NCBI GenBank assembly: GCA_036245525.1 | Contig: BTPG01000006.1 | Location: forward strand, 89,679,035-89,743,034 | Source: Semisulcospira habei | Taxonomy: Eukaryota; Mollusca; Gastropoda; Semisulcospiridae | DNA: 64,000 nt | Reading direction: 5' to 3' | In this document: positions 16,340 to 44,269 of the stretch, piece by piece | Layout: every line of letters starts with the position of its first letter | Numbering within the stretch: the stretch's first letter is position 1 | Position numbers and translations under genes: made by a program | The notes under the pieces: model-generated | Seen by the model: the letters and a program-made list of their open reading frames with translations, nothing else | What the model was told of the DNA's origin: nothing | The model's database searches: none

Positions 16340-16614
16340 ACCCCCCTCCAGCATCGCCGCTGTCACGGACTGTTCCACAAACGCTGTCGCCGTCACGGGC
16401 GGCCCCACGACAGCCGCTGTCAATGGCGGACCCACCGACACTGCCACCGTCACGGGCGGCCCCACGACCTCAGCCGCTGTCGCTGGCGGACCCATCAACA
16501 CAGCCGCTGTCACGGCCGGGCGCCTCGCCAACACTGCCGCTGTCACGGGCGGCCCCACTGCATCAGCCGCTGTCACGGGTGACCCCATCAGCCGCTGTCA
16601 CTGGCGGACCCATC
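16340..16614 (+). repeat. GC-rich minisatellite, left part (Polinton target)
   Basis: Tandem 24-30 bp units of the type CCGCTGTCACGGGCGGCCCC alternating with GCCGCTGTCACTGGCGGACC. Both strands stay open over several hundred bases because unit lengths are mostly multiples of three. The repeat resumes at 32470 on the far side of the Polinton, showing that the element inserted into it. Confidence 0.85.
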
Positions 16615-17570
16615 AGAGAAAGTATATAGGAGATTACAACGACACCCATTTAAGAAACAATTGATTTATTTAATCCTTTCCGTAAATAAACAAACGCACT
16701 TGACCAAATTCATTTAACAGATTTATCTGCCCAGTCAGGTCCCCCAACCCCTTGGAAACAAAAGGCTAGTTAAAATATCTTCCCGAGAAATACACACCAC
16801 CCACCCACCCCCCCACACACACACACCCCCACACCCCACCACTCAATGCTGTCAGAGTTGGCCTTCCTGAGAAATAGTGTCTACTTCCTGTTCATACCAC
16901 CATTGTAAACAATAGTCTTCTATGTCTAAATAGTGTCTCTCTCTCTCTCTCTCTCTCTCTCTGCACACACAAAACAAATTAGCATTCCTTTTTGTGTCAA
17001 CGCTTCAATGTATGTCACTAAACCACTATGTCATTTTTCTTACTCTGGGGCAAACCAAAAATATAGAACAAATCTCTAATATAGGTTATTTCGTAAATGA
17101 AACGTCCAACGTGAAAAATTGTGTGGAGGAAAATTTATCTGTGAAAAGTTTTCACTTCACACATCGTGACTGCTTCGACGCACACGGACATTGCGCTGTT
17201 GAACAATCGGCCTTTGTGCTCAAGACTGTCGCGTGATGAAACCGGATTCCTGTTGCGTGCAGTTATTGCCGTCATAACCTGTAGGTAGAGACAGCTGTTG
17301 TGTAGTCATTGTTAGTTTACAAGATTGCATCTATTTACTCACAACCAGAAAGTTGGGCTTGAAAATTGGTTGTGAAACGGTTTCCTGTTTTCGCTCCAGT
17401 GGGTGACAATCAGCCTTTCATACAGTTATTTATTACCCTGTCGCGTGATGCCTTTAAATTGAAACCCACAACTTTAATCCCGGGAGAGACCTCAATTATT
17501 CAATTTAGTATACACCCCACCATGTTTTACAAGTGTTTTAGATCACTCGAGGAGAAAATCGGGGAGTGAG
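16615..17570 (+). repeat. Polinton left terminal inverted repeat
   Basis: Pairs with 31500-32469 inverted. The outer ~750 bases are close to identical, including an internal CT microsatellite (about 16928-16962). The inner part, to the GTTTTAGATCACTCGAGGAG block, is more diverged. Confidence 0.9.
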
Positions 17571-17691
17571 TTGTTAGTTTGAACCAGATCACGGACATTG
17601 CCTTGTCCTGTTATGCATTTAAATTGAAACCAGATCACGGACATTTGTGTTGCGTGCTGTTTACCCAACCAACATGATAATGGCGGACCTA

Positions 17692-17742
17692 TCTGTGATT
17701 TTAGACCTTGCAGCTTCTGGGTGTAAGGTCTAAAATCACAGA
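17692..17742. repeat. Perfect 18-bp hairpin inside the left end of the Polinton
   Basis: Arms 17692-17709 (TCTGTGATTTTAGACCTT) and 17725-17742 are exact complements around a 15-base loop. It lies between the left inverted repeat and the ATPase gene, with no counterpart near the right end. Could be a replication, packaging or transcription signal; function unknown. Confidence 0.8.
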
Positions 17743-17909
17743 CCGCACACCGTCACTGACGTCCAAGTAGGGAGAAAATAAAACCAGACAAGCTTTTCGT
17801 AGTCATTATTATAAGGCTTGCGGTGTGAGTGGTTAGTTTGAAACCCCTTTTATAACCAGAAAGGCAAGCATAGTGTTTTTGTACAAACAGATTATATTGT
17901 GTTTTTAAA

Positions 17910-18515
17910 ATGGACTTAATGACGCACGATTCACATTGCGGCCTATTTTGTGGCGCCACTTCGTGTGGGAAGACTGAATTTGTTCTTAACCTCTTACAAA
18001 CAAGATACCTTCATCATTTCGAAAACATTGTAATATTTTGTCCAACAATCAAACACAACAAAGCTTATCACAACCGTTCATTCATTTGGACTGACAACAA
18101 CATATACTTAGTCGACCCTGAGAAAAAACTGAATGATTACCTGCTATATTTTTACAAGCAATTTGAAGGACAGCCAACATTGTTCATAGTTGATGACTGT
18201 TCTGCAGAAAAAGACATTGTCAAAAAGAGAAACATATTAGCAGAACTTGCCTTCAGTGGCAGACATGCAAACATCAGTGTATGGATTCTCACTCAGAAAT
18301 ATAATGCTGTACTGAAAGATTTTCGAGAACAGTTAAAGTTTATCTGTTTGTTTTACTGTAAGGACCGTGACAGCTTTGAAGACTGTCTCAGAGAGAACGA
18401 TGTCATTCCAAATAAGCAAGAACGGGATGATGTAAAAAATAAACTGAAATCAACTAAGCATCTAAAGCTCATTTTGAAGACAGATCAACCCACTGGGTAT
18501 GGATTAGTAAATTAA
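17910..18515 (+). CDS. FtsK-HerA/A32-type genome-packaging ATPase
   Basis: Expected to translocate DNA into virions, as in Polintons, adenovirus-related viruses and virophages. The 201-residue product has Walker A GATSCGKT at about residues 15-22 and Walker B TLFIVDDCS near residues 91-99, followed by the sensor-like segment RHANISVWILTQKYN. Length and motif order fit the compact viral ATPase family. The ATG at 17910 places Walker A unusually close to the N-terminus, which is normal for this group. It is the first gene inside the left repeat, followed closely by a small gene and the polymerase on the same strand. Confidence 0.88.
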   Translation: MDLMTHDSHCGLFCGATSCGKTEFVLNLLQTRYLHHFENIVIFCPTIKHNKAYHNRSFIWTDNNIYLVDPEKKLNDYLLYFYKQFEGQPTLFIVDDCSAEKDIVKKRNILAELAFSGRHANISVWILTQKYNAVLKDFREQLKFICLFYCKDRDSFEDCLRENDVIPNKQERDDVKNKLKSTKHLKLILKTDQPTGYGLVN

Positions 18516-18542
18516 TTTATACTTTTGGGTTTGTCTTTAAAA

Positions 18543-18887
18543 ATGACAGACAGACAAAATTGGCCTATTAGTGAAATCATAGATATTACACATTGCTTTA
18601 AAGATGTTAAATATAAAAGCCAGCTTAATAATAGAGAGTCACCTGGTAATTTATTTATTATACCAACAACAGTGTATATGTCTGGTAATATAACTTTTTA
18701 TGTTGATAATCCATTTATTAAAAAAATAACTGTTGATATTAAGACACAATCATTTATTATTAATGAATATTATGATGGTTGGTTTACTAAATTGTGTAGT
18801 AATTTAGCAAAAGAGCTAAATAAAATAAATTTATATTTTAACGATATTACATTTAATAAAATGGTATTACACATACAAAATCAATAA
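18543..18887 (+). CDS. Small conserved Polinton protein of unknown function
   Basis: A 114-residue, very AT-rich gene that starts 28 bases after the ATPase stop, so the two probably share a transcript. I prefer ATG 18543 (MTDRQNWP) over the upstream 18525 start. Segments ISEIIDITHCFKDVKYKSQL and GNITFYVDNPFIKK look like ordered beta-rich protein. No enzyme motif seen. It occupies the position where a maturation protease might be expected, but no His/Asp/Cys triad pattern is visible. Confidence 0.6.
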   Translation: MTDRQNWPISEIIDITHCFKDVKYKSQLNNRESPGNLFIIPTTVYMSGNITFYVDNPFIKKITVDIKTQSFIINEYYDGWFTKLCSNLAKELNKINLYFNDITFNKMVLHIQNQ

Positions 18888-18997
18888 TTATAAACACATG
18901 TGTAAATAAATTTGTTTATTGTAGGAGTTACAGTCAATAAAGTGCCATTTTCATTATATAATTTTCTATTTATTTTTTTGTCGGACAAATAAAAAAG

Positions 18998-21900
18998 ATG
19001 GACAACCGTCAAAGATTAAGAAACGTGTTTCACACAACTGACTTACCTATATATAATATTTACAATGTCTATGAATCAATAGAAAGATCTTTTTTAGTCA
19101 TACAAAATAACCTTCTTTCTGATAGTGTAAAGATTCAGATTGTTGCAAAAATAGAATTTGTCAGAGATGTTGGTAAAGTTATTGTAACGTATATCTCGAC
19201 AAGGCAGCACACAGTTAATTCGAGAAGAGAACTAGAGAAAGTGTTTAGAGAAAGATTGTTACCAGACTTCCATGAAGCAATTGACAGAGCAGAAATGCAA
19301 GGGTCTGGCTGGCATGAAGGCCTTGTACATGAACTACAACTAAAGCAGTCAAGATATCATCCTATTTTAGGCAAATCATGGATACCACTACCAAAAGAGG
19401 TTATAGACAAAAAGGGTGTCGTCAATATTCAGAACAATGATAATTTATGTTTCATGTGGTGTGTGCTTTCTAAACTTCATTTTGTAAAAACAAAACCTGA
19501 ACGTGTATCTAACTATACCAAATTTATAAACGAACTCAACTTCAGTGGCATTGAGTTCCCTGTTAAAATAGAGGACATAGACTTGTTTGAAAAACTAAAT
19601 CCTGGTATATCCGTGAATGTGTTTGTATGGGATAATCAATCTGAGAATAAGTTACAGCCAATTAGAGTATCACCAATTGCCCCAACATATGGACAGTCAG
19701 AAGATAAACATGTTGATATGTTGCTAATAAGCTCTGGTGATAACTTTCACTACACAATTATCAGAAATATGTCACGTCTAATTCATAATCATGTATCAAA
19801 ACATAATGGTAAACAGGAAGTGTGTAAGAGATGTTTACAAAGATTCTCCTCTATTGCAGTGGCACATAAACACATTCTACATTGTAGGTCAGCTGATGAC
19901 ATACAAACTGTACTTAAGTATCCAGAGTCTGGTAGTCAAGTGTATTTTAAAAACTATGGGAATCAACAAAAGCTGCCGTTTGTAGTATACGCAGATTTTG
20001 AATCACTCGTCGTTCCATATGAAGGTCCAATTCCAGAGTCATTACCAAAGACTATAAAATTGAGTGACCAAGTGGTGTGTTCTTTTGGATACATTATTGT
20101 TAGGTCAGACGGTCTTCATTCAGAGCCTGTTATCTACAGAGGTGAAAATGCAGCATGCCTGTTTTTAACAGAAATGAGACAACTGTATAGTCAGGTAGTA
20201 CAGTATCTCACAACATGTCAGATGCCTTTGGTGATGACAGAAGAAGACAAACTAAAATTTGATACAGCAGAGACGTGTTGGATTTGTGAACAGCCTCTGG
20301 GAGGTGATAAAGTTCGTGACCACGATCACATAACTGGGCGTTACAGAGGTGCTGCACATGGTGATTGTAACTTGAAATTAAAAATAGATCCTAAGACATA
20401 TAAGTTACCAATCTTTTTCCACAATCTGAAGGGATATGATTCACACATTATCATGCAGGCTGTTGATGAGTCGTACAAAAAAATTAGTTGTATTGCCCAG
20501 ACAACTGAGAAATACTTGACTTTTAGGTTAGATAAATTAGCATTTTATGACTCCATGCAACATTTGTCTTTAGGTCTTGCTAGTCTGGCAGAAGGACTGA
20601 CTGAGTATCCAATAACAAGTAAATATTTTGAGCCAGACTTGATTAAAAAAGGTGTTTATCCATATGAGTACATCAGTGACTGGGTAGTGTTTGAAGAAAG
20701 GAGACTGCCTCCAAAAGAGAAATTTTATTCTACACTAACTGGCAAAGGTATTTCTGACTCTGATTACCAACACGCACTTGATGCATGGGGTAAACTAGGA
20801 TGTCAGACAATTGGTGACTACCATGACCAGTACTTGAAAGCTGACGTTTGCTTGCTAGCAGATGTATTTGAAAGTTACCGTGAAAAGGGTTTGTTACATT
20901 ACAGTCTTGACCCAGCCTGCTACATCACTAGTCCTGGCATGACATGGGATGCATTTTTGAAATCCAGTAAGATATTTATAGACCTGTTGTCTGATCGTAC
21001 GATGGGTGAAATGGTGGAACGCGGATTGAGGGGGGGCATTAGTTTAGCAGCAAATAATTATGCCAAGGCAAATAATAAATATCTTGATGACTTTGACCCC
21101 TCAAAGCCAAGGTCATTTATTACGTACGTGGACGCTAACAATTTGTACGGATTCGCGATGTGTGAATTATTACCATTAAAAAACTTTTGTTTGTATGATT
21201 TGTCACAGTATGGTATAAAAAAATTAACAAAATATATTATGGATCGAGGTCAAAATGATGAAAAGGGTTGGATCTTTGAAGTAGACCTGGAGTACCCACA
21301 CCACCTACATGATTACCACAATGATTATCCGTTGGCTGTTGAGAAAATGAGTTTGACAGGGAAAAAAGAAGACACCAAACTTGTACCAAATTTAAATGAC
21401 AAATTCAATTACGTTTGCCACTATCGCTTGTTGCAGTTTTACATCAGACACGGGTTAGTACTAAAGAAAGTTCACAGAGGAATTCAATTTGATCAGAGTG
21501 CTTTCATGAAAGATTACATAATGAAGAACACCACATTGCGTGCCAGAGACGGCAACACTGCATTTGACAAAGACTTCTTTAAGCTTATGAACAATGCATG
21601 TTTTGGCAAGACAATGGAAAATCCTCATCACCGCAAAGATGTGAGACTAGTCACAACTGAATCAGGTGCAATTAAACTTACAGGTAAGCCCCAGTACACA
21701 GGGTATAAAGAATTTCATTCATCATTGTATGCAGTGTCACTCAAAAAAAAGATTGTTAAACTAGACAAGCCAGTATTCATTGGTATGGCAATTCTTGAGT
21801 TGTCCAAATTATTAATGCTTGAATTTTATTATGATTACTTCAAACCAAAGTATCCTGAGTGTCGTCTGCTATACACTGACACTGACTCTATGATCATAGA

Positions 21901-22423
21901 CGTATGTACTGAAGACTTTTATGAAGACATGAAAACAGAACTACACATGTATGACACGTCTGATTACCCTAAAGACCATCCACTGTTTAGCACACAAAAC
22001 AAGAAAGTGCCTGGAAAGTTTAAGGATGAACTAAATGGTGTGCCTATAGTTGAGTATGTTGGACTGAGATCAAAAATGTATTCTATACTGCATCAAAAGG
22101 GAAGTCAATCCAAAGCCAAAGGTATCAAGAAAACAGCAATAAAAAATAAAGACATTCGACATGAACATTATAAGCAAGTATTAGATGGAGAACTGATGCC
22201 TGATTATCCAAACAAAACACTGAGGTCAAATAGACACAATATTGAAATGATCCAAACACATAAGAAGTCTCTAGCAGTAGGGGACACGAAACGAGTGTTT
22301 TTCAGTAAGGAAAAAGCTTATGCACCAGGTCATTACAGACTCAAGTTATCTGAAGAAATAGCTGATGAACTGGTTGATGAACTAATCAATGAGTTAGTTG
22401 ATGAAATGATTAAAAATGCGTAA
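18998..22423 (+). CDS. polB: Protein-primed family B DNA polymerase (pPolB)
   Basis: Replicates the element; 1141 residues. An N-terminal domain carries the widely shared LPKEVIDKK…NDNLCFMWCVL segment (about 125-155). A C2H2-like finger CKRC…H…HC lies near 273-296. Exonuclease motifs: YADFES (about 331), HNLKGYDSH (about 475) and YLKADVCLLAD (about 611). Polymerase motifs: VDANNLYG (motif A, about 710), KLMNNACFGKT (motif B, about 863) and YTDTDSM (motif C, about 960). Between the first two exonuclease motifs is a zinc-binding CWIC…VRDHDHITGRYRG…C insert resembling endonuclease VII/HNH. All catalytic acids appear present. The 3' end overlaps the convergent integrase gene by 14 bp. Confidence 0.95.
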   Translation: MDNRQRLRNVFHTTDLPIYNIYNVYESIERSFLVIQNNLLSDSVKIQIVAKIEFVRDVGKVIVTYISTRQHTVNSRRELEKVFRERLLPDFHEAIDRAEMQGSGWHEGLVHELQLKQSRYHPILGKSWIPLPKEVIDKKGVVNIQNNDNLCFMWCVLSKLHFVKTKPERVSNYTKFINELNFSGIEFPVKIEDIDLFEKLNPGISVNVFVWDNQSENKLQPIRVSPIAPTYGQSEDKHVDMLLISSGDNFHYTIIRNMSRLIHNHVSKHNGKQEVCKRCLQRFSSIAVAHKHILHCRSADDIQTVLKYPESGSQVYFKNYGNQQKLPFVVYADFESLVVPYEGPIPESLPKTIKLSDQVVCSFGYIIVRSDGLHSEPVIYRGENAACLFLTEMRQLYSQVVQYLTTCQMPLVMTEEDKLKFDTAETCWICEQPLGGDKVRDHDHITGRYRGAAHGDCNLKLKIDPKTYKLPIFFHNLKGYDSHIIMQAVDESYKKISCIAQTTEKYLTFRLDKLAFYDSMQHLSLGLASLAEGLTEYPITSKYFEPDLIKKGVYPYEYISDWVVFEERRLPPKEKFYSTLTGKGISDSDYQHALDAWGKLGCQTIGDYHDQYLKADVCLLADVFESYREKGLLHYSLDPACYITSPGMTWDAFLKSSKIFIDLLSDRTMGEMVERGLRGGISLAANNYAKANNKYLDDFDPSKPRSFITYVDANNLYGFAMCELLPLKNFCLYDLSQYGIKKLTKYIMDRGQNDEKGWIFEVDLEYPHHLHDYHNDYPLAVEKMSLTGKKEDTKLVPNLNDKFNYVCHYRLLQFYIRHGLVLKKVHRGIQFDQSAFMKDYIMKNTTLRARDGNTAFDKDFFKLMNNACFGKTMENPHHRKDVRLVTTESGAIKLTGKPQYTGYKEFHSSLYAVSLKKKIVKLDKPVFIGMAILELSKLLMLEFYYDYFKPKYPECRLLYTDTDSMIIDVCTEDFYEDMKTELHMYDTSDYPKDHPLFSTQNKKVPGKFKDELNGVPIVEYVGLRSKMYSILHQKGSQSKAKGIKKTAIKNKDIRHEHYKQVLDGELMPDYPNKTLRSNRHNIEMIQTHKKSLAVGDTKRVFFSKEKAYAPGHYRLKLSEEIADELVDELINELVDEMIKNA

Positions 22424-23369
22424 CGGTGTCTGGGGGAATAATCTGTAATTCTTCTCTGACAAATGCCCTCTGAGGCGCAGGCTCATACAGATAATATATT
22501 GTTGCGTCTGGACCAGGGATTATTTTTTTTATATTATGAACAGATGTTGACCAGATGGGGTCTGTCGCCCTGCGTCTGTCGTCGTTCTCAGCCTCCCCTG
22601 GTTGATATAAATATCTCACCTGTTTGGTAAATAAACTTGTGTCTGGAGGTGGGGTTGGCCCTTTTTTTGGCTCTGCAATTGTTTTCAATTTAATAGCATC
22701 AGCAGGCTTAGGGTGTCCTTCATTATTCATTGCTTTTATCACATGTGGTAATCTCTTTACCCACTCAGTGTTACGGGTGTCATGCATGAGTTCCTTAGAA
22801 TACTGGTAACTGAAAAGTCTCTCTGACAACTGTTTATTGAAATTTTCTACAATTGCCTGTGATCTGTGCACACCTGGAATACCGCGTCTGACCAGTACGC
22901 CATGCTTAGCAAATAACTGATTAACTGCACCTTTGAATTCTGATCCATCATCAACCTGCACTAGTCTGGGGTATCTTAAAGGGCCTCGACCATATATTTT
23001 TGTTAATGCTGTAGCAACTGTGGTAGCTGTTTTGTCAGATATGGGTTCAGCGTCTTTATACCTTGAAGCAATGTCTACAACAGTCAGTGCATACTTGTAT
23101 CGTTTCTTTCTTATTGTGTCATGTGGTAAGAACAGGAGGTCCATTTGGTGTGTGTCATTTGGGGTAGTGTTTTCAAAATGGGGTCTTGTTATTTTTCTTG
23201 GAGCAGGTAAATATATCTGCCAAATTGCCTGTCTCTGTAACCATTGCTTGACTTGATTGAGTGTTATATCTCCGCCCACAGCGGCATGTAATTTCTGAAT
23301 AGCTGTTGCTCCTTTCCAATAGCCTGATGGAGAGTAATATATTTTTGATAGTTTATTTTCGGCTGCCAT
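22410..23369 (-). CDS. int: Retroviral-type DDE integrase
   Basis: Inserts the linear genome into host DNA. I choose the ATG at 23369 (MAAENKLSKIYY), 12 codons inside the longest frame, giving 319 residues. Core triad, numbered from the upstream start: D89 in QMDLLF, D152 in VDDGSEF and E187 in IVENFNKQL, i.e. D,D-35-E spacing. The N-terminus resembles the PSGYWKGATAIQKLH segment typical of Polinton integrases; I see no clear HHCC finger or chromodomain. The C-terminal SH3-like tail is present. The start overlaps the neighbouring minus-strand gene by 17 bp. Confidence 0.92.
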   Translation of the reverse strand: MAAENKLSKIYYSPSGYWKGATAIQKLHAAVGGDITLNQVKQWLQRQAIWQIYLPAPRKITRPHFENTTPNDTHQMDLLFLPHDTIRKKRYKYALTVVDIASRYKDAEPISDKTATTVATALTKIYGRGPLRYPRLVQVDDGSEFKGAVNQLFAKHGVLVRRGIPGVHRSQAIVENFNKQLSERLFSYQYSKELMHDTRNTEWVKRLPHVIKAMNNEGHPKPADAIKLKTIAEPKKGPTPPPDTSLFTKQVRYLYQPGEAENDDRRRATDPIWSTSVHNIKKIIPGPDATIYYLYEPAPQRAFVREELQIIPPDTVTHF

Positions 23370-23787
23370 TTTTTCTAGCAATGAAAACTCCTGTAAAATA
23401 AACAAATGTCATTCCCACTAGAACAAAGATTATCTCCCCGTTTCTTTGTTGTGTGCTTGGTTTGTAATAGTCACTTAGTTTTGGTTTTGGGATAGACATA
23501 TCTTCACCCGTGACTAAAAAATACTCACGGATTGCTTCGTCTGTATTTGAAAACGTATGCTGTGCGTGACCTTCAAGCCTGAGTTTTTCATTGATGAAAT
23601 CAAGTTTCTCAATTCTATTTTTTTCATAATCTTGCTGGGCTTGAGCAAGTTTTTCAGATGCTTCATTATGACGTTTTAATTCTTCTGCAGATTCTTCTCT
23701 ACCCATTTTTGAAAAGAGATAATTAGAGCCACTAAATGCCAGAGCATTAACCATAGCACCTCCTATCATAATAGCTATCGTCGCCAT
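23353..23787 (-). CDS. Conserved Polinton membrane/coiled-coil protein (144 aa)
   Basis: Unknown function, but I recognise the type from Maverick-like loci of invertebrates. The N-terminus MATIAIMIGGAMVNALAFSG is hydrophobic and glycine-rich. A charged helical segment follows (residues ~30-75, EKLAQAQQDYEKNRIEKLDF), and a second hydrophobic helix IIFVLVGMTFVYFTGVFIA lies near the C-terminus before a basic tail. Probably a virion or membrane-associated protein. It overlaps the integrase start. Confidence 0.7.
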   Translation of the reverse strand: MATIAIMIGGAMVNALAFSGSNYLFSKMGREESAEELKRHNEASEKLAQAQQDYEKNRIEKLDFINEKLRLEGHAQHTFSNTDEAIREYFLVTGEDMSIPKPKLSDYYKPSTQQRNGEIIFVLVGMTFVYFTGVFIARKNGSRK

Positions 23788-23798
23788 AATATTTTTAT

Positions 23799-24029
23799 TT
23801 ACATAGAAACATTTTCAGGAATAATTCCCTGCTTGACAAGAAAATCTTTTGTCGCAATCGACGCTGTGACAACTACAATTAGCTTAGCACTGTCTTCGAA
23901 ATCTAATCTACTCAGGTCTGCCGATTTCATTTTGAGTAGACTTTTTCCCAGCATAGAATAAGCTACTGCTAATCCGCTGATTACGGCAGAGTGATACACA
24001 AGGTTCATTAAATTTTTTGAGTCGTTCAT
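23799..24029 (-). CDS. Small conserved Polinton protein (76 aa)
   Basis: Short, mainly helical protein with a hydrophobic N-terminal half (LVYHSAVISGLAVAYSML) and a KLIVVVTASIATKDFLVKQG segment. Unknown function; the family recurs in animal Maverick-like elements. It sits 11 bp from its downstream neighbour in a compact minus-strand cluster. Confidence 0.65.
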   Translation of the reverse strand: MNDSKNLMNLVYHSAVISGLAVAYSMLGKSLLKMKSADLSRLDFEDSAKLIVVVTASIATKDFLVKQGIIPENVSM

Positions 24030-24064
24030 TTCTTAGGCAAGAAAAATTAAAATAATTAATTTAT

Positions 24065-24514
24065 TTACTGCATGTAAAATGAGTCCAAAGGTTTTGACAC
24101 TGTTGGTAATGTGGAGACTTCTTCTTTTATTTTTGGAGTGTCTGATTTTTTGGTCACTGTACGAGTCTGTGGTTTGTATTTTTTGTATAATTGATAACCT
24201 ACGTAACCAAATCCGACAACAAATCCGGCAACTACATATTTTGTTGTTTGAGGTTCGGGGTCAGGGTCAGACTTAGTTGTTTGTCTCTCACTTTCATGAA
24301 GGTGTGACGGTACTGACACAGGTCCTGACGATCCTGACGGTGGATCAGTTACATGAGTCTTTTCTGTTTGTGCCTTAAGCTGTAATTTTTTTTGCCTATT
24401 ATATTCAGCTAATCTTTTTCCAGCATCAACACGGCCCGGACTTTTAGTCTTCGTCACAGTTTGAACCTGTGTCAAAACAGGGTTCAGTTGTGGAGTCGCC
24501 TGGGTTTCGTCCAT
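24065..24514 (-). CDS. Basic, low-complexity Polinton protein with one membrane helix (149 aa)
   Basis: The N-terminal half is Thr/Lys/Gln-rich, with a basic GRVDAGKRLAEYNRQKKLQL segment. A Pro/Ser-rich linker follows, then a helix KYVVAGFVVGFGYVGYQLYK and a basic tail. It may bind nucleic acid or sit in the virion membrane; unproven. The start overlaps the end of the neighbouring gene by 71 bp in another frame. Confidence 0.6.
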   Translation of the reverse strand: MDETQATPQLNPVLTQVQTVTKTKSPGRVDAGKRLAEYNRQKKLQLKAQTEKTHVTDPPSGSSGPVSVPSHLHESERQTTKSDPDPEPQTTKYVVAGFVVGFGYVGYQLYKKYKPQTRTVTKKSDTPKIKEEVSTLPTVSKPLDSFYMQ

Positions 24515-24971
24515 TTTCTTCTGCAGTAAAATTTATTTTTGAAAAATCGATATAACTACTAGTTACCATCAAAGTTACGGCAGGTGCAAGGTAATTGCCA
24601 AACTTGTAAAACATGGTACATGCTAATTTGCCAATCGAACTAGAAACTATAGGGTTGCTTTCGAGATCATGAGAAAGGCTGTCAGTGTCTATTGGTATGA
24701 AGTGATTAACAGCTTTTGTGTATAGGTAAATAAGAGACCTGCTTAAATCGCGTGTCATTAGTGAAGCAATATGGTTTTCATATTTAGCATGAAGTTTTAA
24801 TAGTTCGTCAGCGGTGAGAGACTCTATGTCTTCTACCATGTATTGTTTTCCGAGATAAGTCTTTGATTTGCCTGAGACAATAACAGAAAGAATGCGTTGT
24901 TTTTTCGAGTCTAAGTCTTTGTTCTCTACCACATTGATATCATTAAGAAGAAGTAATTCGTCTTGGTTCAT
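24444..24971 (-). CDS. Conserved Polinton protein of unknown function (175 aa)
   Basis: ATG 24971 (MNQDELLLLNDINVV) is preferred to the 25028 start. Helical N-terminal region, then ESLTADELLKLHAKYENHIA, a mid-segment of soluble character and a hydrophobic stretch FGNYLAPAVTLMVTSSYI, ending in an acidic tail. No enzyme motif recognised. Part of the minus-strand cluster with virion-type genes. Confidence 0.65.
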   Translation of the reverse strand: MNQDELLLLNDINVVENKDLDSKKQRILSVIVSGKSKTYLGKQYMVEDIESLTADELLKLHAKYENHIASLMTRDLSRSLIYLYTKAVNHFIPIDTDSLSHDLESNPIVSSSIGKLACTMFYKFGNYLAPAVTLMVTSSYIDFSKINFTAEENGRNPGDSTTEPCFDTGSNCDED

Positions 24972-25188
24972 TTTATAATAAAATAAAAAAAACTTTGCCT
25001 GTGAATAACTTATGAAGTTACTGTTCATGTAACTGTCTAGAATAATGTGATCTTACTTGATAACTAATTTCAAAGTTACCTACAACTTACAAGTAACTTT
25101 GACGTTAGTTATCATAAGTTCTTAACCCAAGTCATAAGACACTCGGACAGATTTCTCAAGTTACAAGGACAAGAAGAAAACTTTTTTT

Positions 25189-25341
25189 TTAGTAATAATC
25201 TGGTGGTGGGGCTGATGGCATCAAATGAGCAGGCATGACATCTCTTTGCGAAGTGTATGACAAAAATAATGGATTACCAAAACCTATCGTTACTTGCTTG
25301 TAAGTTCTCGAACTTTTTTCATAGTTTCTTCTACGCCTATC
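25189..25341 (-). CDS. Candidate -1-frame extension carrying PSAP and PPDY motifs
   Basis: After the heptamer A AAA AAG at 25348-25342 in the upstream gene, the -1 frame is open for 50 codons and ends at TAA 25189-25191. It has no early ATG. The relic copy (44093-44269) keeps the same frame: KQ, SFGN/GFGN, LSYT, PSAP and a terminal YY agree, and the length difference between the copies is in-frame. The C-terminus has PSAP (Tsg101-type late domain) and PPDY (PPxY, Nedd4-type). Frameshifting is inferred; splicing or an independent start remain possible. Confidence 0.6.
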   Translation of the reverse strand, partial: DRRRRNYEKSSRTYKQVTIGFGNPLFLSYTSQRDVMPAHLMPSAPPPDYY

Positions 25342-25916
25342 TTTTTTCCTTGTTCTAAAAAAGATTTCTTTAGCTCTTCAACATTTACAGCCTGACTACG
25401 CATCTTATTCTGTATTTCAGATTTTTGTTGTTTATAGTTAGCCAAATCATCCTGGACTCGCTTAAATTCTTCGTCATCAATTTCATTATTTTCCAAAGCC
25501 TTACTAATAATAAGTTTTATACTCGTCAGCTTAGCTGCTGCGAGCGTACTTAATGCTTCATGCTTCTGCAACTTCATATAAAATCTTTTGTTAATGGCTT
25601 CCATACCAAAGCATGCTAGACTTGTGACAAGACCAATACCTTCAACAGCAATTCCTATAACACTTCCCACCCCCGTTGCAAAAAGAGTTATACCTCCTAC
25701 AGATAATCCGGCTGAAACCACCCCCATGGCCATTGATGTGTTGTGTACAGAATTGAAAACCGTATTGTAACGGCGTTTACACCTCGAGTATTTTGCTTGT
25801 TCTTCTTCCAAATACTTCAACGCTTCTGTAATATTCATTAAACGAAATGAATCTGCCTTTAATGTTTTATCACGCTCAATAGGCTCAGGTGGTATTTGTG
25901 GATACAAGTTCACCAT
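25290..25916 (-). CDS. Polinton helical membrane-active-type protein (208 aa)
   Basis: An N-terminal helical segment (NITEALKYLEEEQAKYSRCK) leads into a long glycine/alanine-rich hydrophobic hairpin (about residues 65-105, including GVVSAGLSVGG and GVGSVIGIAVEG). A charged helix with the family signature NNEIDDEEFKRVQDDLANYK follows. The layout resembles pore-forming helical proteins; I recognise the family from many cnidarian and molluscan Maverick-like loci. A homologous relic lies at 43498-44150. The 3' end contains a slippery-type heptamer leading into the -1-frame extension. Function unproven; membrane penetration or virion assembly is plausible. Confidence 0.7.
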   Translation of the reverse strand: MVNLYPQIPPEPIERDKTLKADSFRLMNITEALKYLEEEQAKYSRCKRRYNTVFNSVHNTSMAMGVVSAGLSVGGITLFATGVGSVIGIAVEGIGLVTSLACFGMEAINKRFYMKLQKHEALSTLAAAKLTSIKLIISKALENNEIDDEEFKRVQDDLANYKQQKSEIQNKMRSQAVNVEELKKSFLEQGKKIGVEETMKKVRELTSK

Positions 25917-25937
25917 TTTTTATTTACAAATATTTTT

Positions 25938-26822
25938 TTAATCAGCAATTACATTTTGCAACTCTTCAAAATTATACAATTTGCTGGCATAATAAAATGC
26001 AACAAGATCAATGTGTTCAAGGTTTATGTAAGTTAGACGAACAAAAGTTGTTTTGTCAACCACCACCTTGACAGCTGGAATACTGCTCGAAACATTAATA
26101 ACATCATTATTTTTTGTAATAGCAATAAAGACCTTTGATGATTCTGATACTGTTTCATCCCATGTAAGTTTAATTCCTTGTGCAATTTGAGCCTCTTTTG
26201 CAGAAGCAACAGATTTCATAATAATTTCAAATACTATTGCCGCTTCTCTAGCCACGACTAAGCTTGCTGGCATAAACACAACAGTGGTATCTGATCTACC
26301 CTTTCTAGTTGTAAGAAGATATCTTCGTTTCTCATAATTTTCAACTTTCAGTTTTTCTCTGCTATTGTTGTCTAGGGCAAAACTTGGAACAAGGCTTACA
26401 ATAAGCGGCCCAGAATTAACAACCTTCCTAAAAACTAAGGCGCCTTCATCATCAGTGTATACATAAGGACTAATAAATTCAATCTTTATGTCCCAGTCAA
26501 TTGTGGGTGGTGGTGCCGGTACAGGTGAAACAACCCACTTACTACCCACATGTATTAAGTTGTAGGGCACATTATTTACAAGATTAGGCGCAACAGGCAC
26601 AGTAACATCACGTAGCTGACCAAGTTTAGGAATCTGTCTTTCACCATCTTTCATGTCAACAATTACTTTTCTCTTGTACATGCCATAGGAATCAAGTTCA
26701 AAACCATATATTTCTCCAATTTCTCCCTCTTTCTCAAAATCCTGTACGTCTGCCAAATCTTTCAACTCTGTTACTGGACACGCAACTGGTATGATTCTCG
26801 GCTTTGGACCAAGACCACTCAT
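25938..26822 (-). CDS. Conserved Polinton protein, possible virion component (294 aa)
   Basis: I choose ATG 26822 (MSGLGPKPRIIP). The sequence is beta-rich, with KWVVSPVPAPPPTIDWDIKI at mid-length and a YTDDEGALVFRKVV segment, and is soluble throughout with no membrane helix. A clear paralogous relic at 40465-41665 aligns from YTDDEGALVF to the C-terminal NVIAD. Role unknown; location among capsid-type genes suggests a structural protein. Confidence 0.65.
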   Translation of the reverse strand: MSGLGPKPRIIPVACPVTELKDLADVQDFEKEGEIGEIYGFELDSYGMYKRKVIVDMKDGERQIPKLGQLRDVTVPVAPNLVNNVPYNLIHVGSKWVVSPVPAPPPTIDWDIKIEFISPYVYTDDEGALVFRKVVNSGPLIVSLVPSFALDNNSREKLKVENYEKRRYLLTTRKGRSDTTVVFMPASLVVAREAAIVFEIIMKSVASAKEAQIAQGIKLTWDETVSESSKVFIAITKNNDVINVSSSIPAVKVVVDKTTFVRLTYINLEHIDLVAFYYASKLYNFEELQNVIAD

Positions 26823-26842
26823 TTTTATAAACAAAAATAAAA

Positions 26843-27556
26843 TTATTTAATTTCCAAAACAACATAAAAATCATGCATTACAACTGGTTTACCATTCTGA
26901 TTAGTTACAGATAAGCACAATGATTCAAAGAAACTAGAACCTAATTTTTTAAACTGAGAATTAGGAAATCTAGCAACCACATTTTCACAATATGGGGCAG
27001 TTCCAGTCGGCAAGCATCTTAACAAAGTTGAAGGCTTTCCATTGTGTACATTTTCAGTAGTGTTCAGTTCTTTCAAATGAACATTTAGCACTGTGTGTAC
27101 TGACAAATGAACAGGATATCTGCCAGTTATTCTTGGTTTTTTTGGTGATAGTAGACTACCAACTGATTGTGACCAATCTTCATCTGGATGTGTTATTGTT
27201 TTAAAAAATCCAAGTAATAATAAAAGACTAATTGATAAAGAAAACTGACCACTTTTCGGAAAATCAATTGTAACAAGTAAATTAGCTGGGTTTAAAGTTG
27301 CTTTAATTTTAAATTCATTTTGAAGCCATTCAGCTAAAGTACAAAAGTCATAATACCCAGCTCGTAAAGTATCACCCTTCTCAATACCATCAAGAGTTCC
27401 ACTTACAGAATAATTTTCATCATCCGTTACATTAAACCACTTTACTGTGTAGAACATTTCATGGATAGCTACAGCCTTGCTACCATCACGATTATCAATC
27501 CCATTAGTTAACCACATTGGTTTGCTTGTGTCAATATTTGTTAAGGTTATAAACAT
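26843..27556 (-). CDS. Candidate minor capsid (penton-like) protein (237 aa)
   Basis: ATG 27556 (MFITLTNIDTSKP) is preferred. The protein is beta-rich, and the segment GYYDFCTLAEWLQNEFKIKA followed by LLVTIDFPKSGQFSLS resembles the GYY-x-L-x3-L pattern in single-jelly-roll pentons of Polintons and adintoviruses. That similarity is from memory, so the penton assignment is tentative. It faces the divergent plus-strand gene across only 23 bp, implying a shared promoter region. Confidence 0.5.
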   Translation of the reverse strand: MFITLTNIDTSKPMWLTNGIDNRDGSKAVAIHEMFYTVKWFNVTDDENYSVSGTLDGIEKGDTLRAGYYDFCTLAEWLQNEFKIKATLNPANLLVTIDFPKSGQFSLSISLLLLLGFFKTITHPDEDWSQSVGSLLSPKKPRITGRYPVHLSVHTVLNVHLKELNTTENVHNGKPSTLLRCLPTGTAPYCENVVARFPNSQFKKLGSSFFESLCLSVTNQNGKPVVMHDFYVVLEIK

Positions 27557-27579
27557 TTTTATTATCACATAAAAAAAGG

Positions 27580-28806
27580 ATGGAATTTAAATCACCAACC
27601 ATTACCACTACAAACGCATTTCAATTTAATGTAGATGCCAAATATAATGTCGCCCCTACTTATGAACAGAAAATAATTCAACTAAATCAACTCGACATAG
27701 CTGTAAGCGAACAAGATTTATTTCAAGTCAAAGTACCCAACCCTTTTGATCATTACCTAAACCCTCCAATAACAGACGATGCTACAGCAAGAAAGTGGTC
27801 CTCAAGTCCACTACAGATGTTTCAAAACCAACTTAACTTTGCTATACTGTGTAGTACTACAGGCTGTGGTGTTTCATTTACAGACCATTTGAATCACTCA
27901 AACAAACTGATTAGGTCTGTGTATCGTTTCCATGTTTATTACCAGCTTAGACGTATACTGTCAGAACTGCATACACCACTACCAACTGAATCCAGTTTTA
28001 ACAGGTATAACAACCCCATGGATATGAAAGCATTTGAACGCATCTGTAATGAATTTAACATAAGCACTAAGTATGACTTTACACAAAAACTTGATGATCA
28101 CAAAGGCATGGGAACACTGTATTACGCTTTGAGTCATAGACAATACCCTCAAGATTACTGGCCTCCCTACACTTCATTCTCATCAAAATCACAAGTCTGG
28201 TTAGGCTCAATAGAACAGAAACAATCTAACGCATGGTCAACATTTGTCTTGGACAGGAGTGACGGATTTACTCAAGCAGGAGTCGAGCGCGTAAATGAGT
28301 CTATCAGAACATATGTCTGGTGTATATTAGGTGCACAATCATTAACAAAATCTAATATTCTGAATGGAAGTGGTAAATTTGAAACACAAAAACAGTTTCT
28401 CGCTAATCTTGAAGATTCAGTAAATTCATCAGTTGATCTCCCATCAAGCATACAACGTTACCAAGATGTACTCAGATATGCCAGATCAAAAGTTGACTTT
28501 GTAGTTGGCACTGGGTTATACATGTTACCATCTGACCTTCAACTCCAAATGGGTACAATAACAAATTATAATAATGAAATCATTGTTGCTGGGAGTGATC
28601 AAAAACTAGGTCTCAATAAATCTGTAAATTTAGGAGAAACAACTGTGCACGTACAGTTGAAAAAAACATTACAAGTGATTACTTCCCTTGCTCCAACAGC
28701 TATACAACCAGTACAGTCAACCCCTGACACACATGAATCTGAGAGAACTGCATTGGTAATTGGCCTTACTGGAGTAGGAATATTACTTCTTTACCTGTTT
28801 CATTAA
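27580..28806 (+). CDS. Conserved Polinton protein with C-terminal membrane anchor (408 aa)
   Basis: Unknown function, but a family I recognise in invertebrate Maverick-like loci. Ordered region with STTGCGVSFTDHLNH, IRSVYRFHVYYQLRRIL, GVERVNESIRTYVWCILGAQ and ARSKVDFVVGTGLYMLPSD; a Thr/Pro-rich linker; and a terminal helix ALVIGLTGVGILLLYLF. It starts 23 bp from the divergent minus-strand gene and its 3' end overlaps the next, convergent gene by 24 bp. The tail anchor suggests a membrane-linked virion protein. Confidence 0.7.
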   Translation: MEFKSPTITTTNAFQFNVDAKYNVAPTYEQKIIQLNQLDIAVSEQDLFQVKVPNPFDHYLNPPITDDATARKWSSSPLQMFQNQLNFAILCSTTGCGVSFTDHLNHSNKLIRSVYRFHVYYQLRRILSELHTPLPTESSFNRYNNPMDMKAFERICNEFNISTKYDFTQKLDDHKGMGTLYYALSHRQYPQDYWPPYTSFSSKSQVWLGSIEQKQSNAWSTFVLDRSDGFTQAGVERVNESIRTYVWCILGAQSLTKSNILNGSGKFETQKQFLANLEDSVNSSVDLPSSIQRYQDVLRYARSKVDFVVGTGLYMLPSDLQLQMGTITNYNNEIIVAGSDQKLGLNKSVNLGETTVHVQLKKTLQVITSLAPTAIQPVQSTPDTHESERTALVIGLTGVGILLLYLFH

Positions 28807-30006
28807 ATAACCTATCATTAACCCTCCTACTGTCACCAAAAAGATCCAAACATGCTCCGCCATAAACCCTACTGCCTTTGCCGCTGTACTAATCAACCAA
28901 TTGACAACCGTGCCTAAAATGCCAGGTAACGAGTCTACTGCTTTCAGAGCCAATTTCTTAAGCAAGTCTGATATGTGTGACAACTGTTTCTTTACCCACG
29001 ACTGTAAGTCTTTTGGATCTGTGGGAACTGGGGTTGGTGGTGCTGGAGGTGGAGAACCACCACCCGTTACAGCCAACACAACTGTACTGATAATAAACCC
29101 CAGAGCTGTAATTAAACTGGCAATTGTGATACCCTGTTCTCTGAAAAGTGTTTTAAGTCTCTCAGCCAGAGTAGTGTCTTCGTGAAGTATTTTCTGAATA
29201 GTTTCTCTAATCCTGTTGACCTGTGATTTCAGTTTTTCCCTTCCAATACTAATCGCTTCTAACCTCGCTGATCTTTCTATCTGCAAATCATTTAATCTGT
29301 GTTGGATTCTTTCTTTCATTTCTGTGTCAAGATTCCCATTGTCTGCGGTAGCCAGTTTCTCTTTCTCACGTTCTATGTGTTTATCAAGCTCTCCCAGTTT
29401 GGCAAGATTATTAACCATCTCACCTCTTATTGTCTGCAGTGATTTATCCAACCCTATAATCTCCCGCATTGACAAAGGTGGATCATCTATTGTTTTCAAA
29501 GCGTCATTTATTTGTCCTTCAGTAAATGAGGTTTCTTGTATCACTGTGTTTGCTATTTCTGGTAGGCTTGTTATTGGTGCCATTTCAATTTCTTGCCCTG
29601 TTGGTAACTTTGTTTGCGTGTCTTGAAGCACACTAACCAGTCTTGGCGTGACAGGAGACCCACCAATACCAAGTTGACGCAAGGCACTAACACCACCTTC
29701 ATTTTTTATTGTACTTAAAGCCCTAAACCTACTAGGGTCTTTTTTGTTAGTCAATAGTACTTTTCCTTTGTCAACAGTATTTAAATATAAATGACCCTTG
29801 ACATCAAGTTCAAACTGGTTAGGGTCTATGTTGTCTGGGCGATTACCAACATGATCATAAAATGAGTTCACTTTGGTTTCTAAAAGTTCGTGACGTAAAC
29901 TGTAAATATTTCTTGTACCAGTCATATCTGCCATATCTGTTGTATTACCAAAATCATACGTGCCATCCATTTCAAAATCTTCATGATTAAATCCTCCCGC
30001 GGCCAT
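28783..30006 (-). CDS. Conserved Polinton coiled-coil/membrane protein (407 aa)
   Basis: ATG 30006 (MAAGGFNHEDFEMDG) is preferred. The N-terminal region has SLRHELLETKVNSFYDHVG and LSTIKNEGGVSALRQLG. A long coiled coil (about 195-290) follows. The signature LFREQGITIASLITALGFI is the first membrane helix, then a Pro-rich linker (PPPAPPTPVPTDP), and C-terminal amphipathic and hydrophobic helices end WIFLVTVGGLMIGYLMK. The family recurs in animal Mavericks; function unknown. Divergent from the capsid gene by 41 bp. Confidence 0.7.
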   Translation of the reverse strand: MAAGGFNHEDFEMDGTYDFGNTTDMADMTGTRNIYSLRHELLETKVNSFYDHVGNRPDNIDPNQFELDVKGHLYLNTVDKGKVLLTNKKDPSRFRALSTIKNEGGVSALRQLGIGGSPVTPRLVSVLQDTQTKLPTGQEIEMAPITSLPEIANTVIQETSFTEGQINDALKTIDDPPLSMREIIGLDKSLQTIRGEMVNNLAKLGELDKHIEREKEKLATADNGNLDTEMKERIQHRLNDLQIERSARLEAISIGREKLKSQVNRIRETIQKILHEDTTLAERLKTLFREQGITIASLITALGFIISTVVLAVTGGGSPPPAPPTPVPTDPKDLQSWVKKQLSHISDLLKKLALKAVDSLPGILGTVVNWLISTAAKAVGFMAEHVWIFLVTVGGLMIGYLMKQVKK

Positions 30007-30047
30007 TGTTTTTATTAATTTAATTTTTTTTATTGTGCATAATAAAA

Positions 30048-31331
30048 ATGACACAGTCCTACGGATCAAAGTTAGACCCACACAGAAAACTACGTGAACC
30101 TTTCGGTGTTAAAGCAGTTAGACAATCGATAGTCATCACAAACAATCCTAGTACTATAGACCAAAACCAGACTCTTACTGTCAAGTTTCCAAACCTAGGC
30201 CCCAGTGACGTTATTGTTCCTGGTACTGCTCGTCTTGCTTTTAATATTGAACTTTCATCGGACGCAGATGACAAAAGAACACTAGTTAACAATCTAGGTA
30301 GAGCAATTATTAAGAATATTAAAGTTAAACTTGAAGGACAGGAAGTGTTTAGTCTTGACGATGCTGATGTGTTCTACTGCTACACGGATTTGTGGCTTAC
30401 AAGAAAAGAACGAGAAGATCGTATTTACCAAGGCATACAGTCAGATAGCATTATGAAAATTCGAATAAATGCATCAGACAAAACAACCACAGAAGGCACG
30501 GACGTTATTGTGGCCGAAACATATGGAAATAGGTTTTGCATTCCACTCGAATTTGAAATCCTAACAGGACATTCGCCTTATTACCAAGGGGCACTAAATG
30601 ACCGCCTGAGTTTTGAACTAACCTTCAATGATTACTCCAAAGTTATCAAATCAACGGATCTCAATGCATCATATAAGATCTCTAACATTTCCTTGGAATA
30701 TGAGATTGTCACGCATACTGAACTAGCCAGACTCATTCAAAATCAGTACCAGTCAAGACTTCCAATTTATTATGATCGAGTGATTAGACACAGTTTAATT
30801 AATAAAAACAAAATGGACCAAATTTGGAACTTAAACCTAAACACGCCTGCTAGGTCACTGAAAGGCATTCTTATGTTATTTGTTGAACCAAAAAGTCCTT
30901 ACCAAGGAGATTCAGAAAAATTCTATAATCCGAAAATTACACATTTATCCTGCACAATCGAAGGCCGACCTAATCAAATTTTTGCGTCTGGAATGATGGG
31001 ATATCAGCACTATGATGAGATCACAAAGTATTTTGCTGGGGGAAGACTTAGAGAAAAATCAGCAAATATTGCGTGCAAAGATCTGCATCTGTATGACGTA
31101 AGAATCGGTGAATACCTGACAGACAAGTACGCACTGTGGCTAGATCTGCGTTCTACGGACGACAATTTCCTTCATGGTTCTGGCCGTATTATCGAAAACG
31201 GTAGTGACGGAATCTCAATTCAAATACAGAAAAAAACAGAAAAATCTGAAGCAATCAATATATATTTGTATCTGATTTATGATGCGCAACTAAACATCTC
31301 TGAGAGCAGGCTAAGTAGTCACATATATTAA
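30048..31331 (+). CDS. Candidate major capsid protein (427 aa)
   Basis: ATG 30048 (MTQSYGSKLD) is preferred. The beta-rich protein contains NNPSTIDQNQTLTVKFPNLG, DVIVPGTARLAFNIEL and NNLGRAIIKNIKVKLEGQEV, then DVFYCYTDLWLTRKER and a C-terminal YALWLDLRSTDDNFLHGSGR and INIYLYLIYDAQLN. Size and strand-rich repetition fit a double-jelly-roll capsid. It is strongly conserved among invertebrate Maverick-like loci in my memory. The capsid assignment rests on size, predicted beta content and gene order, not a solved structure. Last gene before the right inverted repeat. Confidence 0.65.
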   Translation: MTQSYGSKLDPHRKLREPFGVKAVRQSIVITNNPSTIDQNQTLTVKFPNLGPSDVIVPGTARLAFNIELSSDADDKRTLVNNLGRAIIKNIKVKLEGQEVFSLDDADVFYCYTDLWLTRKEREDRIYQGIQSDSIMKIRINASDKTTTEGTDVIVAETYGNRFCIPLEFEILTGHSPYYQGALNDRLSFELTFNDYSKVIKSTDLNASYKISNISLEYEIVTHTELARLIQNQYQSRLPIYYDRVIRHSLINKNKMDQIWNLNLNTPARSLKGILMLFVEPKSPYQGDSEKFYNPKITHLSCTIEGRPNQIFASGMMGYQHYDEITKYFAGGRLREKSANIACKDLHLYDVRIGEYLTDKYALWLDLRSTDDNFLHGSGRIIENGSDGISIQIQKKTEKSEAINIYLYLIYDAQLNISESRLSSHIY

Positions 31332-31499
31332 AAGTATTCACTTAGCTTGGTTTTAATCCTTCACAGCCCATTTTGAATACCGAAATCACTATAAAATCCG
31401 AACGTATTAGCAGACACGTCACGCTTGTGCTGAAACACCGACTAAACTGAAAATAAAAGGCGTCGTTTCACTGAGGTAACAGTTTCACTACCGATTTCA

Positions 31500-32469
31500 A
31501 CATTCCCAATTTTCTCCTCGAGTGATCTAAAACACTTGTAAACATGATGGGGTGTACTAGTAACTTGAATCATTTAGGTCTATCACTGGGATTAGAGTTA
31601 TTGGGTTTTGTCTTTCAATTTAAATGCATCACGCGACAGTGACTACGCAATAGCTTAAGCATAAAGACCTATTGTTCAGAAATGTCACCAACTGAGCGAA
31701 AACAGGAAACCGTTTCACAACCAATTTTCAAGCCCAACTTTCTGCTTATGAAAGAGATGCAATCTTGTAAACTCACATGACTACACAACAGCTGTCTCTA
31801 CCTACAGGTTATGACGGCAATAACTGCACGCAACAGGAATCCGGTTTCATCACGCGACAGGGTTGAGCACAAAGGCCGATTGTTCAACAGCGCAATGTCC
31901 GTGTGCGTCGCAGCAGTCACGATGTGTGAAGTGAAAACTTTTCACAGATAAATTTTCCTCCACACAATTTTTCACGTTGGACGTTTCATTTACGAAATAA
32001 CCTATATTAGAGATTTGTTCTATATTTTTGGTTTGCCCCAGAGTAAGAAAAATGACATAGTGGTTTAGTGACATACATTGAAGCGTTGACACAAAAAGGA
32101 ATGCTAATTTGTTTTGTGTGTGCAGAGAGAGAGAGAGAGAGAGAGAGACACTATTTAGACATAGAAGACTATTGTTTACAATGGTGGTATGAACAGGAAG
32201 TAGACACTATTTCTCAGGAAGGCCAACTCTGACAGCATTGAGTGGTGGGGTGTGGGGGTGTGTGTGTGTGGGGGGGTGGGTGGGTGGTGTGTATTTCTCG
32301 GGAAGATATTTTAACTAGCCTTTTGTTTCCAAGGGGTTGGGGGACCTGACTGGGCAGATAAATCTGTTAAATGAATTTGGTCAAGTGCGTTTGTTTATTT
32401 ACGGAAAGGATTAAATAAATCAATTGTTTCTTAAATGGGTGTCGTTGTAATCTCCTATATACTTTCTCT
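31500..32469 (-). repeat. Polinton right terminal inverted repeat
   Basis: Inverted partner of 16615-17570; contains the complementary GA microsatellite near 32126-32149. Confidence 0.9.
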
Positions 32470-32725
32470 CCATCAACACTGCCGTTGTCAGTCACGGGCG
32501 TCTCACCAACACTGCCGCTGTCACAGGCGACACCACGGCATCGGCCGCTATCACGGGTGACCCCATCAGCCGCTGTCGCTGGCGGACCCATCAACACTGC
32601 CGCTGTCACGGGCGGCCCCACCAACACTGCCGCTTCTAGAGGCGGCCCCAGCAACAGTGCCGCCGTCACGTGCGGCCCCACTGACCATGACTGCCGCTGT
32701 CACGTGCGGCCCAACCAACACTGGG
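32470..32725 (+). repeat. GC-rich minisatellite, right part
   Basis: Continues the units seen at 16340-16614 (AACACTGCCGCTGTCACGGG and GCGGCCCCACC). Joining 16614 to the sequence after the duplicated CCATC gives an uninterrupted GGCGGACCCATCAACACTGCC unit. Confidence 0.85.
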
Positions 32726-43497: not shown

Positions 43498-44269
43498 GAA
43501 TGTTGAACTTGTATCTGCAACTACCAACGCTTGAGTCCGTGCCGATTGATCCGCATGTGACAACTGTGCCAATTGCATCAGATAAAACATTACAGGCAGG
43601 CGCATTCCGATTAATAAATATTACAGAAGCATTGAATATTTGGAAGGAGAAGAGGCAAAATACTCCAGGTGTAAAAGACGGTATAAGACAGTTTTCAATT
43701 CTGTACACAATGCAGCTATGGCTGTGGGTGTAGTTTCAGCTGGTTTATCTGCTGGTGGTTTTGCTCTGATTGCCACTGGAATTGCTCTTGAAGGTGTTAG
43801 TGGTTTTGCATGTCTGGCATGCTTTGGTTTAGAAGCCCTTAACAAAAGATTTCATACAAAGTTACAGAAACATGAAGCGTTGAGTACGCTCGCTGGTGCA
43901 AAACAAGAGTAGTATGAAACTTACAATCAGTAAAGCGTTGCATGACAATTTAATTGACGACGATGAATTTAAAAGAGTGCAAGATGATTTGAACAATTAC
44001 AAACAATTGAAATCTGAAATACAGAATAAGATGTGTAGTCAATCTCCCGTAAATGTTGAAGAACTAAAGGCTAGTTTTTTAGAGAGGGGAAAACAAATTG
44101 GGGTCCAAGAAACCACAGACAAACTTCAAAATCTACTTTCAAGCAAATAAAGATCAGTTTTGGAAATCGTTTAATATTGTCATACACTTTACAAAAAGAT
44201 GACACGCCACATATGCAGCTTGAGCCTATCTATTTAGCCCCATCCGCTCCGACGCCAGAGTACTATTGA
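43498..44269 (+). pseudogene. Relic of the 208-aa Polinton gene plus its -1-frame extension
   Basis: Begins with the equivalent of the intact start (NLYLQLPTLE), continues RLINITEALN, the glycine-rich hydrophobic region (SAGLSAGGFALIATG) and DDDEFKRVQDDLNNYKQLKS, ending at TAA 44148-44150. Small frameshifts lie near 43655 and 43905. The heptamer G GGA AAA (44087-44093) precedes an open -1 frame, 44093-44269, ending PSAPTPEYY. Confidence 0.85.

Follow-up and report, generated by a model that had tools for sequence, protein, structure and literature searches.

Frameshift-made membrane proteins, such as alphavirus TF, and double late domains, such as that of Ebola virus VP40, are known separately. 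In alphaviruses, the -1 open reading frame of TF is generally 26-31 codons long and basic residues tend to follow the membrane region, Semliki Forest and Sindbis virus sequences shift at U UUU UUA at 10-17%, and no compact 3' structure was found at the shift site in the Semliki Forest complex (PMC2569925). Among late-domain motifs, PPxY is a ligand of Nedd4 and P[ST]AP a ligand of Tsg101 (PMC2841620, PMC2958808, PMC5680296); Ebola virus VP40 carries the overlapping late domain PTAPPEY (PMC6357148), and the PPxY of adenovirus protein VI recruits Nedd4 ligases (PMC2841620). The nearest published precedent is found in adintoviruses, in whose Penton genes hypothetical slippery sites with cysteine-rich ends were predicted (PMC11071296, a preprint). 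Among the papers listed in the literature searches, which covered few subscription papers, we found no report of a frameshift-made membrane protein combined with a double late domain, nor of a Polinton in which selection is shown for one of the two.

The window (the whole 64,000-nucleotide stretch analyzed) contains a Polinton/Maverick with a 208-aa gene, and comparison among copies shows that the -1 frame downstream of the stop codon of this gene is conserved as protein and under protein-level selection. At a probability of roughly 0.7, we consider that a minority of ribosomes slip at a U UUU UUA heptamer, which would make a second form of the likely membrane protein with the selected late-domain tail. 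The features of the locus are as follows.

16616-32469, no strand assigned: Polinton/Maverick carrying the 208-aa gene, with terminal inverted repeats and a target duplication
25290-25916, minus strand: 208-aa 0-frame gene, with the 0-frame stop TAA at 25292-25290
25602-25733, minus strand: hydrophobic, glycine-rich stretch (residues 62-105; Kyte-Doolittle), a predicted two-helix hairpin (AlphaFold2)
25356-25362, minus strand: U UUU UUA, proposed -1 shift site, in Ser-Phe-Leu codons 185-187, 23 codons before the 0-frame stop
25341-25347, minus strand: A AAA AAG, the heptamer named in the sequence-only reading, present in some families only
25293-25362, minus strand: overlap, in which frame 0 is selected and frame -1 is open and not conserved; in the trans-frame form this stretch would supply a basic linker
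25192-25292, minus strand: tail read in frame -1 beyond the 0-frame stop, selected at the protein level
25207-25218, minus strand: PSAP, in the -1 tail
25195-25206, minus strand: PPDY (PPxY), in the -1 tail
25189-25191, minus strand: -1-frame stop codon, end of the tail
43498-44269, plus strand: diverged relic of gene and tail, with U UUU UUA at 44075-44081 and the tail stop at 44267-44269

The element is bounded by terminal inverted repeats of about 950 bp (16615-17563 and 31505-32469, 93.5% identity) and a 6-bp target duplication, CCATCA. It encodes a retrovirus-like integrase (rve, PF00665, E 1.5e-10) and an A32-like packaging ATPase (PF04665, E 1.3e-13). When the 1141-aa open reading frame was examined as a protein-primed DNA polymerase B, Pfam gave just a weak Endonuclease_7 match. 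A 427-aa protein, a likely capsid protein, has 3419 relatives in the protein database, with PF16903 precomputed on 1 among the 120 listed; it had no sequence match in PDB. The flanks of the element (about 16352-16615 and 32470-32723) resemble each other, and the insertion site lies in a repeat-rich stretch.

The product of the 208-aa gene is likely a two-pass membrane protein, as predicted from its hydrophobicity and modeled fold. Hydrophobic 19-residue windows lie inside residues 62-105, and the AlphaFold2 model, built from four sequences, was helical with a mean pLDDT of 67. The best viral fold matches of this low-confidence model were three uncharacterised iridovirus proteins (E 2.8e-6 to 2.1e-5, 19-23% identity). 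The iridovirus matches were to invertebrate iridoviruses, and the weaker matches included some proteins named SLATT 2TM domain. These matches suggest that the modeled protein shares a class of two-pass membrane proteins with the iridovirus and SLATT 2TM proteins. Adenovirus protein VI was absent by name among the 50 matches listed per search with this model of pLDDT 67, some of the matches being nameless. Three metagenome homologues of the 208-aa protein stop at the same C-terminal position.

The sequence-only reading had described the 208-aa open reading frame with a -1 frame ending MPSAPPPDYY, and both are present in the sequence. Beyond the stop, the -1 frame continues for 34 codons rather than the 50 that had been claimed (about 52 if counted from A AAA AAG), and A AAA AAG itself is present one base away from where it had been placed, at 25347-25341 instead of 25348-25342. 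The description of the relic held: its -1 frame is open to PSAPTPEYY, the length differences between relic and window copy are multiples of three (3 and 18 nt), and, of this pair, just the window copy has A AAA AAG and just the relic G GGA AAA. The U UUU UUA heptamer, which had gone unmentioned, is common to both, and the relic -1 frame opens exactly there. The relic 0-frame body has two frame-breaking indels, and its tail has PSAP but TPEY in place of PPxY. Among 1265 stop-to-stop frames of at least 30 codons in the window, the tail described here is the only one with P[ST]AP and PPxY together.

Additional copies were sought in the host genome (1.98 Gb, 507 contigs) with the 208-aa protein and two further queries, P0001 and P0003; each gave at least 150 matches, and the match lists of P0001 and P0003 overlap in part. 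These match numbers show strong amplification of this Polinton group. Many of the copies matched by the 208-aa query have open genes that are 99-100% identical, which suggests recent activity. We read 100 loci, which with the relic make 101 rows. Fifty are near-identical (L002-L051, where L023 is the window's own), 30 of them taken from the top of the match list of the 208-aa query and 20 from lower down in it, and 50 are divergent (L052-L101). Nine of the near-identical loci, L032-L040, are mosaic: the first ~200 residues nearly equal the window copy (25290-25916) and the 3' end is that of another lineage, likely by recombination or conversion.

The late domain is conserved among these copies. 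P[ST]AP was found in 49 of the 50 near-identical and 39 of the 50 divergent copies, PPxY in 48 and 40, and both motifs in 48 and 37, respectively. The 11 divergent rows without P[ST]AP comprise three variants (SALP, PSPP, and LSAP) and eight cut or frame-shifted tails; in addition, the tail of L079 is cut after P[ST]AP, that of the near-identical L019 is cut, and that of L049 ends PPPD. The 39 divergent tails with P[ST]AP end in PSAPPPEYY (15), PSAPPPDYY (11), PSAPPPEY (4), PSAPPPPPDYY (3), or PSAPPPPDYY (2), and in four other ways found once each, including PTAPPEY followed by FLK in L098; PTAPPEY is the string of Ebola VP40. Their stop codons, TGA in 25 and TAA in 14, lie at the same end. 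At most tail ends P[ST]AP overlaps or abuts PPxY, and in intact tails length changes preserve the frame and proline runs of two to five residues preserve both motifs. Homologous copies had been proposed as a check on the -1 frame, and within this one host genome the open frame, a heptamer, and a C-terminal P[ST]AP/PPxY persist in most of them.

Substitution patterns were evaluated in the window-relic pair and in a larger set. In the pair, counted in the frames of the window copy, frame 0 gave a dN/dS of 0.20 for the body and 0.13 for the overlap, and frame -1 gave 0.99 for the overlap and 0.19 for the tail. The tail value is far from the value near 1 that the sequence-only reading had named as refuting its proposal. 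When the columns of the pair tail were shuffled 20000 times, 29 shuffles matched the observed protein similarity and 5 of these were also stop-free. No signal was detected in the other two frames of the tail (3367 and 913 of 5000 shuffles as good) or in the three frames after it (884 to 2774 of 5000). Together, the pair dN/dS and the shuffles indicate that selection in frame 0 runs to its own stop and that selection in frame -1 starts about there. Across the 21 pairs of seven tail types, dN/dS in the tail was below 1 in all (0.08 to 0.82).

The larger set was drawn from 54 rows (the 50 divergent loci, L023, L032, L042, and the relic), of which nine were dropped for a tail not ending in the motif (L059, L064, L066, L071, L076, L079, L080, L082, and L100), leaving 45. 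Counts of stops in frame -1 prove nothing in this set, because the choice of rows itself removes tails with stops. The rows fell into 22 clusters at least 15 nt apart; the clusters are not independent trials, because the rows share one genome and ancestry and some are mosaic. Across the clusters, pN/pS in the tail was 0.40 in frame -1, 0.90 in frame 0, and 0.95 in frame +1, and pN/pS in the overlap was 0.28 in frame 0 and 1.01 in frame -1. For the 22 gap-free tail codons, pN/pS in frame -1 was 0.33, a value reached in 2 of 2000 column shuffles. Freedom from stops in the -1 frame of the overlap is weak evidence (P 0.088 and 0.13). The dN/dS, shuffle, and pN/pS results bear out the claim of a -1-frame C-terminal extension with P[ST]AP and PPxY beside a conserved 0-frame stop.

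The body could be joined to the -1 tail by alternative splicing that removes the 0-frame stop. A weak, phase-compatible pair of a GTAAAT donor and an AG acceptor is common to the window copy and the relic, at spacings of 92 and 95 nt, but this acceptor is lost in L032-L040, where the tail is retained, and 20 of the 45 rows are without any phase-compatible acceptor for the GTAAAT donor. The window copy, L032, and the relic also share in-phase pairs that combine donors such as GTAAGG/GTAAAG with an acceptor in the tail, 51-54 nt downstream of the stop; the AG of this acceptor is present in 35 of the 45 rows and missing in 10 that have intact tails. The part of the tail ahead of the in-tail acceptor is itself selected in frame -1 (pN/pS 0.54 vs. 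0.87 and 0.96), as is the part after it (0.33 vs. 1.00 and 0.94), and the would-be introns are selected as 0-frame coding sequence. No phase-compatible GT-AG intron fits all of the copies, as read from the host genome, and vertebrate Mavericks were described with intronless open reading frames (PMC8097293). The missing acceptors and the -1 selection ahead of the in-tail acceptor make splicing unlikely.

The -1 frame opens exactly at U UUU UUA in several families. This heptamer was present, 23 codons before the 0-frame stop, in 97 of the 101 rows, namely 49 of the 50 near-identical copies, 47 of the 50 divergent copies, and the relic. The sequence-only reading had pointed to A AAA AAG and, in the relic, G GGA AAA, which occur in 10 and 5 of the 22 tail clusters; the heptamer that persists from family to family is instead U UUU UUA, in 21 of them. 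U UUA AAC was found in seven clusters. U UUU UUA is a conserved in-frame heptamer of the form X XXY YYZ, as expected of a -1 frameshift cassette. A AAA AAG occurs in 19 of the 50 divergent copies and is absent from the relic; the near-identical copies do not separate the two candidate sites, because A AAA AAG is also present in all 50. The four exceptions have C UUU UUA (L035), A UUU UUA (L054), U UUU GUA (L082), and U UUU UUG (L087). The tail is intact without U UUU UUA in L035, L054, and L087 and is not kept in L082; L035 and L087 carry A AAA AAG, and L054 is without any of the four heptamers counted. In all 22 clusters, the codons of the slip site are TTT for Phe and TTA for Leu, and the preceding Ser codon, TCT in 12 and AGT in eight, ends in T in both forms; synonymous sites close by vary, for example in the codons for Gly190, Ile193, Gly194, Val195, and Thr198.

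Taken by itself, the window copy does not make U UUU UUA remarkable, the heptamer being present in 10.6% of synonymous resamplings of the stretch; some consensus heptamer was present in 42% of resamplings of the slip-site stretch in this copy, and 17% of 30-codon windows across 13 open reading frames hold one. By folding and alifold, no RNA structure 3' of the heptamer was conserved or unusually stable (alifold energy 0.00; mean z -0.60 and 0.25 over 22), pseudoknots and long-range pairing being outside these models; the Semliki Forest complex likewise has no compact structure (PMC2569925). Of the 50 divergent loci (L052-L101), 18 carry a second canonical heptamer, U UUA AAC, three codons ahead of the 0-frame stop; these loci belong to families ending LLNK. 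U UUA AAC is among the most shift-prone heptamers with mammalian ribosomes (PMC5009743), and it could be an extra or backup shift site. Additional heptamers may add slippage.

Slippage in transcription on the run of six T's, by which some mRNAs would gain one T, would yield an identical protein without a ribosomal slip, and the T run is conserved even in L087, where the heptamer ends in G. Against it, a six-base run is short for polymerase slippage, and the final A of the heptamer would not be needed yet is nearly always kept, although the Leu codon TTA could persist by chance. We regard transcriptional slippage as improbable. Translation of the tail as a short protein of its own, or as the last part of a different spliced gene, would be compatible with the meeting of the 0-frame and -1 selected regions about the 0-frame stop, but no ATG is common at the start of the tail, the ATGs of the window copy and relic are unaligned, and no tail-only protein was found in a search requiring shared 5-residue words, which leaves this explanation somewhat less probable still. 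That the tail is the fossil of a continuous gene split by an old indel, as the broken tails in some copies might suggest, is very improbable given that the 0-frame end is identical in the three metagenome proteins and nearly all copies read, the tail is in frame 0 in none of those copies, and protein-level selection acts on the tail in the 22 clusters.

The best reading of the sequence is an alphavirus-TF-like trans-frame protein that would put a late domain on a membrane protein; both the frameshifting and the binding of ESCRT and Nedd4 by the tail are inferred. Under ribosomal slippage, the majority of ribosomes would not slip and would make the 208-aa form, ending at the 0-frame stop, and those slipping back one base at U UUU UUA would make about 187 residues followed by the basic linker and then the tail with the late domain. 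A two-pass hairpin has its two ends on the same membrane face, so the tail would be exposed to the cytosol or the virion interior. From its motifs, the tail is predicted to recruit Tsg101/ESCRT-I and Nedd4-type ligases, and confinement of the late domain to the minor form would dose this recruitment, as for alphavirus TF against 6K. The step served would most likely be membrane-associated egress, the alternative being endosomal escape during entry. More broadly, and at slightly less than even odds, the Polintons of this group may use a -1 frameshift of the HIV/alphavirus type to make a dosed minor virion membrane protein with an overlapping ESCRT-I/Nedd4 late domain at its end, for ESCRT-driven exit or entry like that of enveloped viruses.

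Alphavirus 6K/TF and this locus have in common a viral membrane protein gene, a conserved U UUU UUA, and a short -1 open reading frame that gives an alternative C-terminus. The proteins are unrelated, however; the Polinton is a DNA element, its tail ends in late-domain motifs, and its 0-frame ends at its own stop instead of continuing in a polyprotein, and the trans-frame form is predicted from sequence alone. The likeness is one of how the systems would work, and homology is not claimed. As in Ebola virus VP40, P[ST]AP and PPxY stand side by side, and the string in L098 is identical; in VP40, a matrix protein of no relation, the motif belongs to the N-terminal domain, whereas the Polinton motif ends the proposed minor frameshift form. 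Adenovirus protein VI shares the PPxY; it is a capsid protein from a DNA virus and is not known to involve a frameshift. The Polinton tail has P[ST]AP in addition. In HIV, the frameshift adds enzymes and the late domain resides in Gag itself. HIV-1 gag-pol shares the U UUU UUA heptamer with the Polinton gene (PMC5009743, PMC2569925). The adintovirus Penton genes, from relatives of Polintons, share a proposed -1 alternative C-terminus near the 3' end of a virion gene, but they are a different gene, the site is a prediction only, and the preprint's section on these sites does not mention a late domain (PMC11071296).

A membrane protein that carries overlapping P[ST]AP and PPxY late-domain motifs offers a testable route for Polinton movement between cells. 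If true, it would unite two virus tricks, a frameshift-made membrane protein and a double late domain, and would point, at the molecular level, to a life cycle of these Polintons that is non-lytic and linked to membranes.

Two minor observations concern other Polinton genes. Polinton capsid-type genes (P0048, P0108, and L001) were found in contigs assigned to Candidatus Thiodiazotropha and in a single contig of a Diapherotrites MAG, which likely reflects eukaryote DNA contaminating the prokaryote bins. A 144-aa open reading frame (23353-23787 of the window, minus strand) carries A AAA AAU at codon 138, close to its end, and its -1 frame is open for 30 codons beyond the stop, adjoining the start of the integrase open reading frame.
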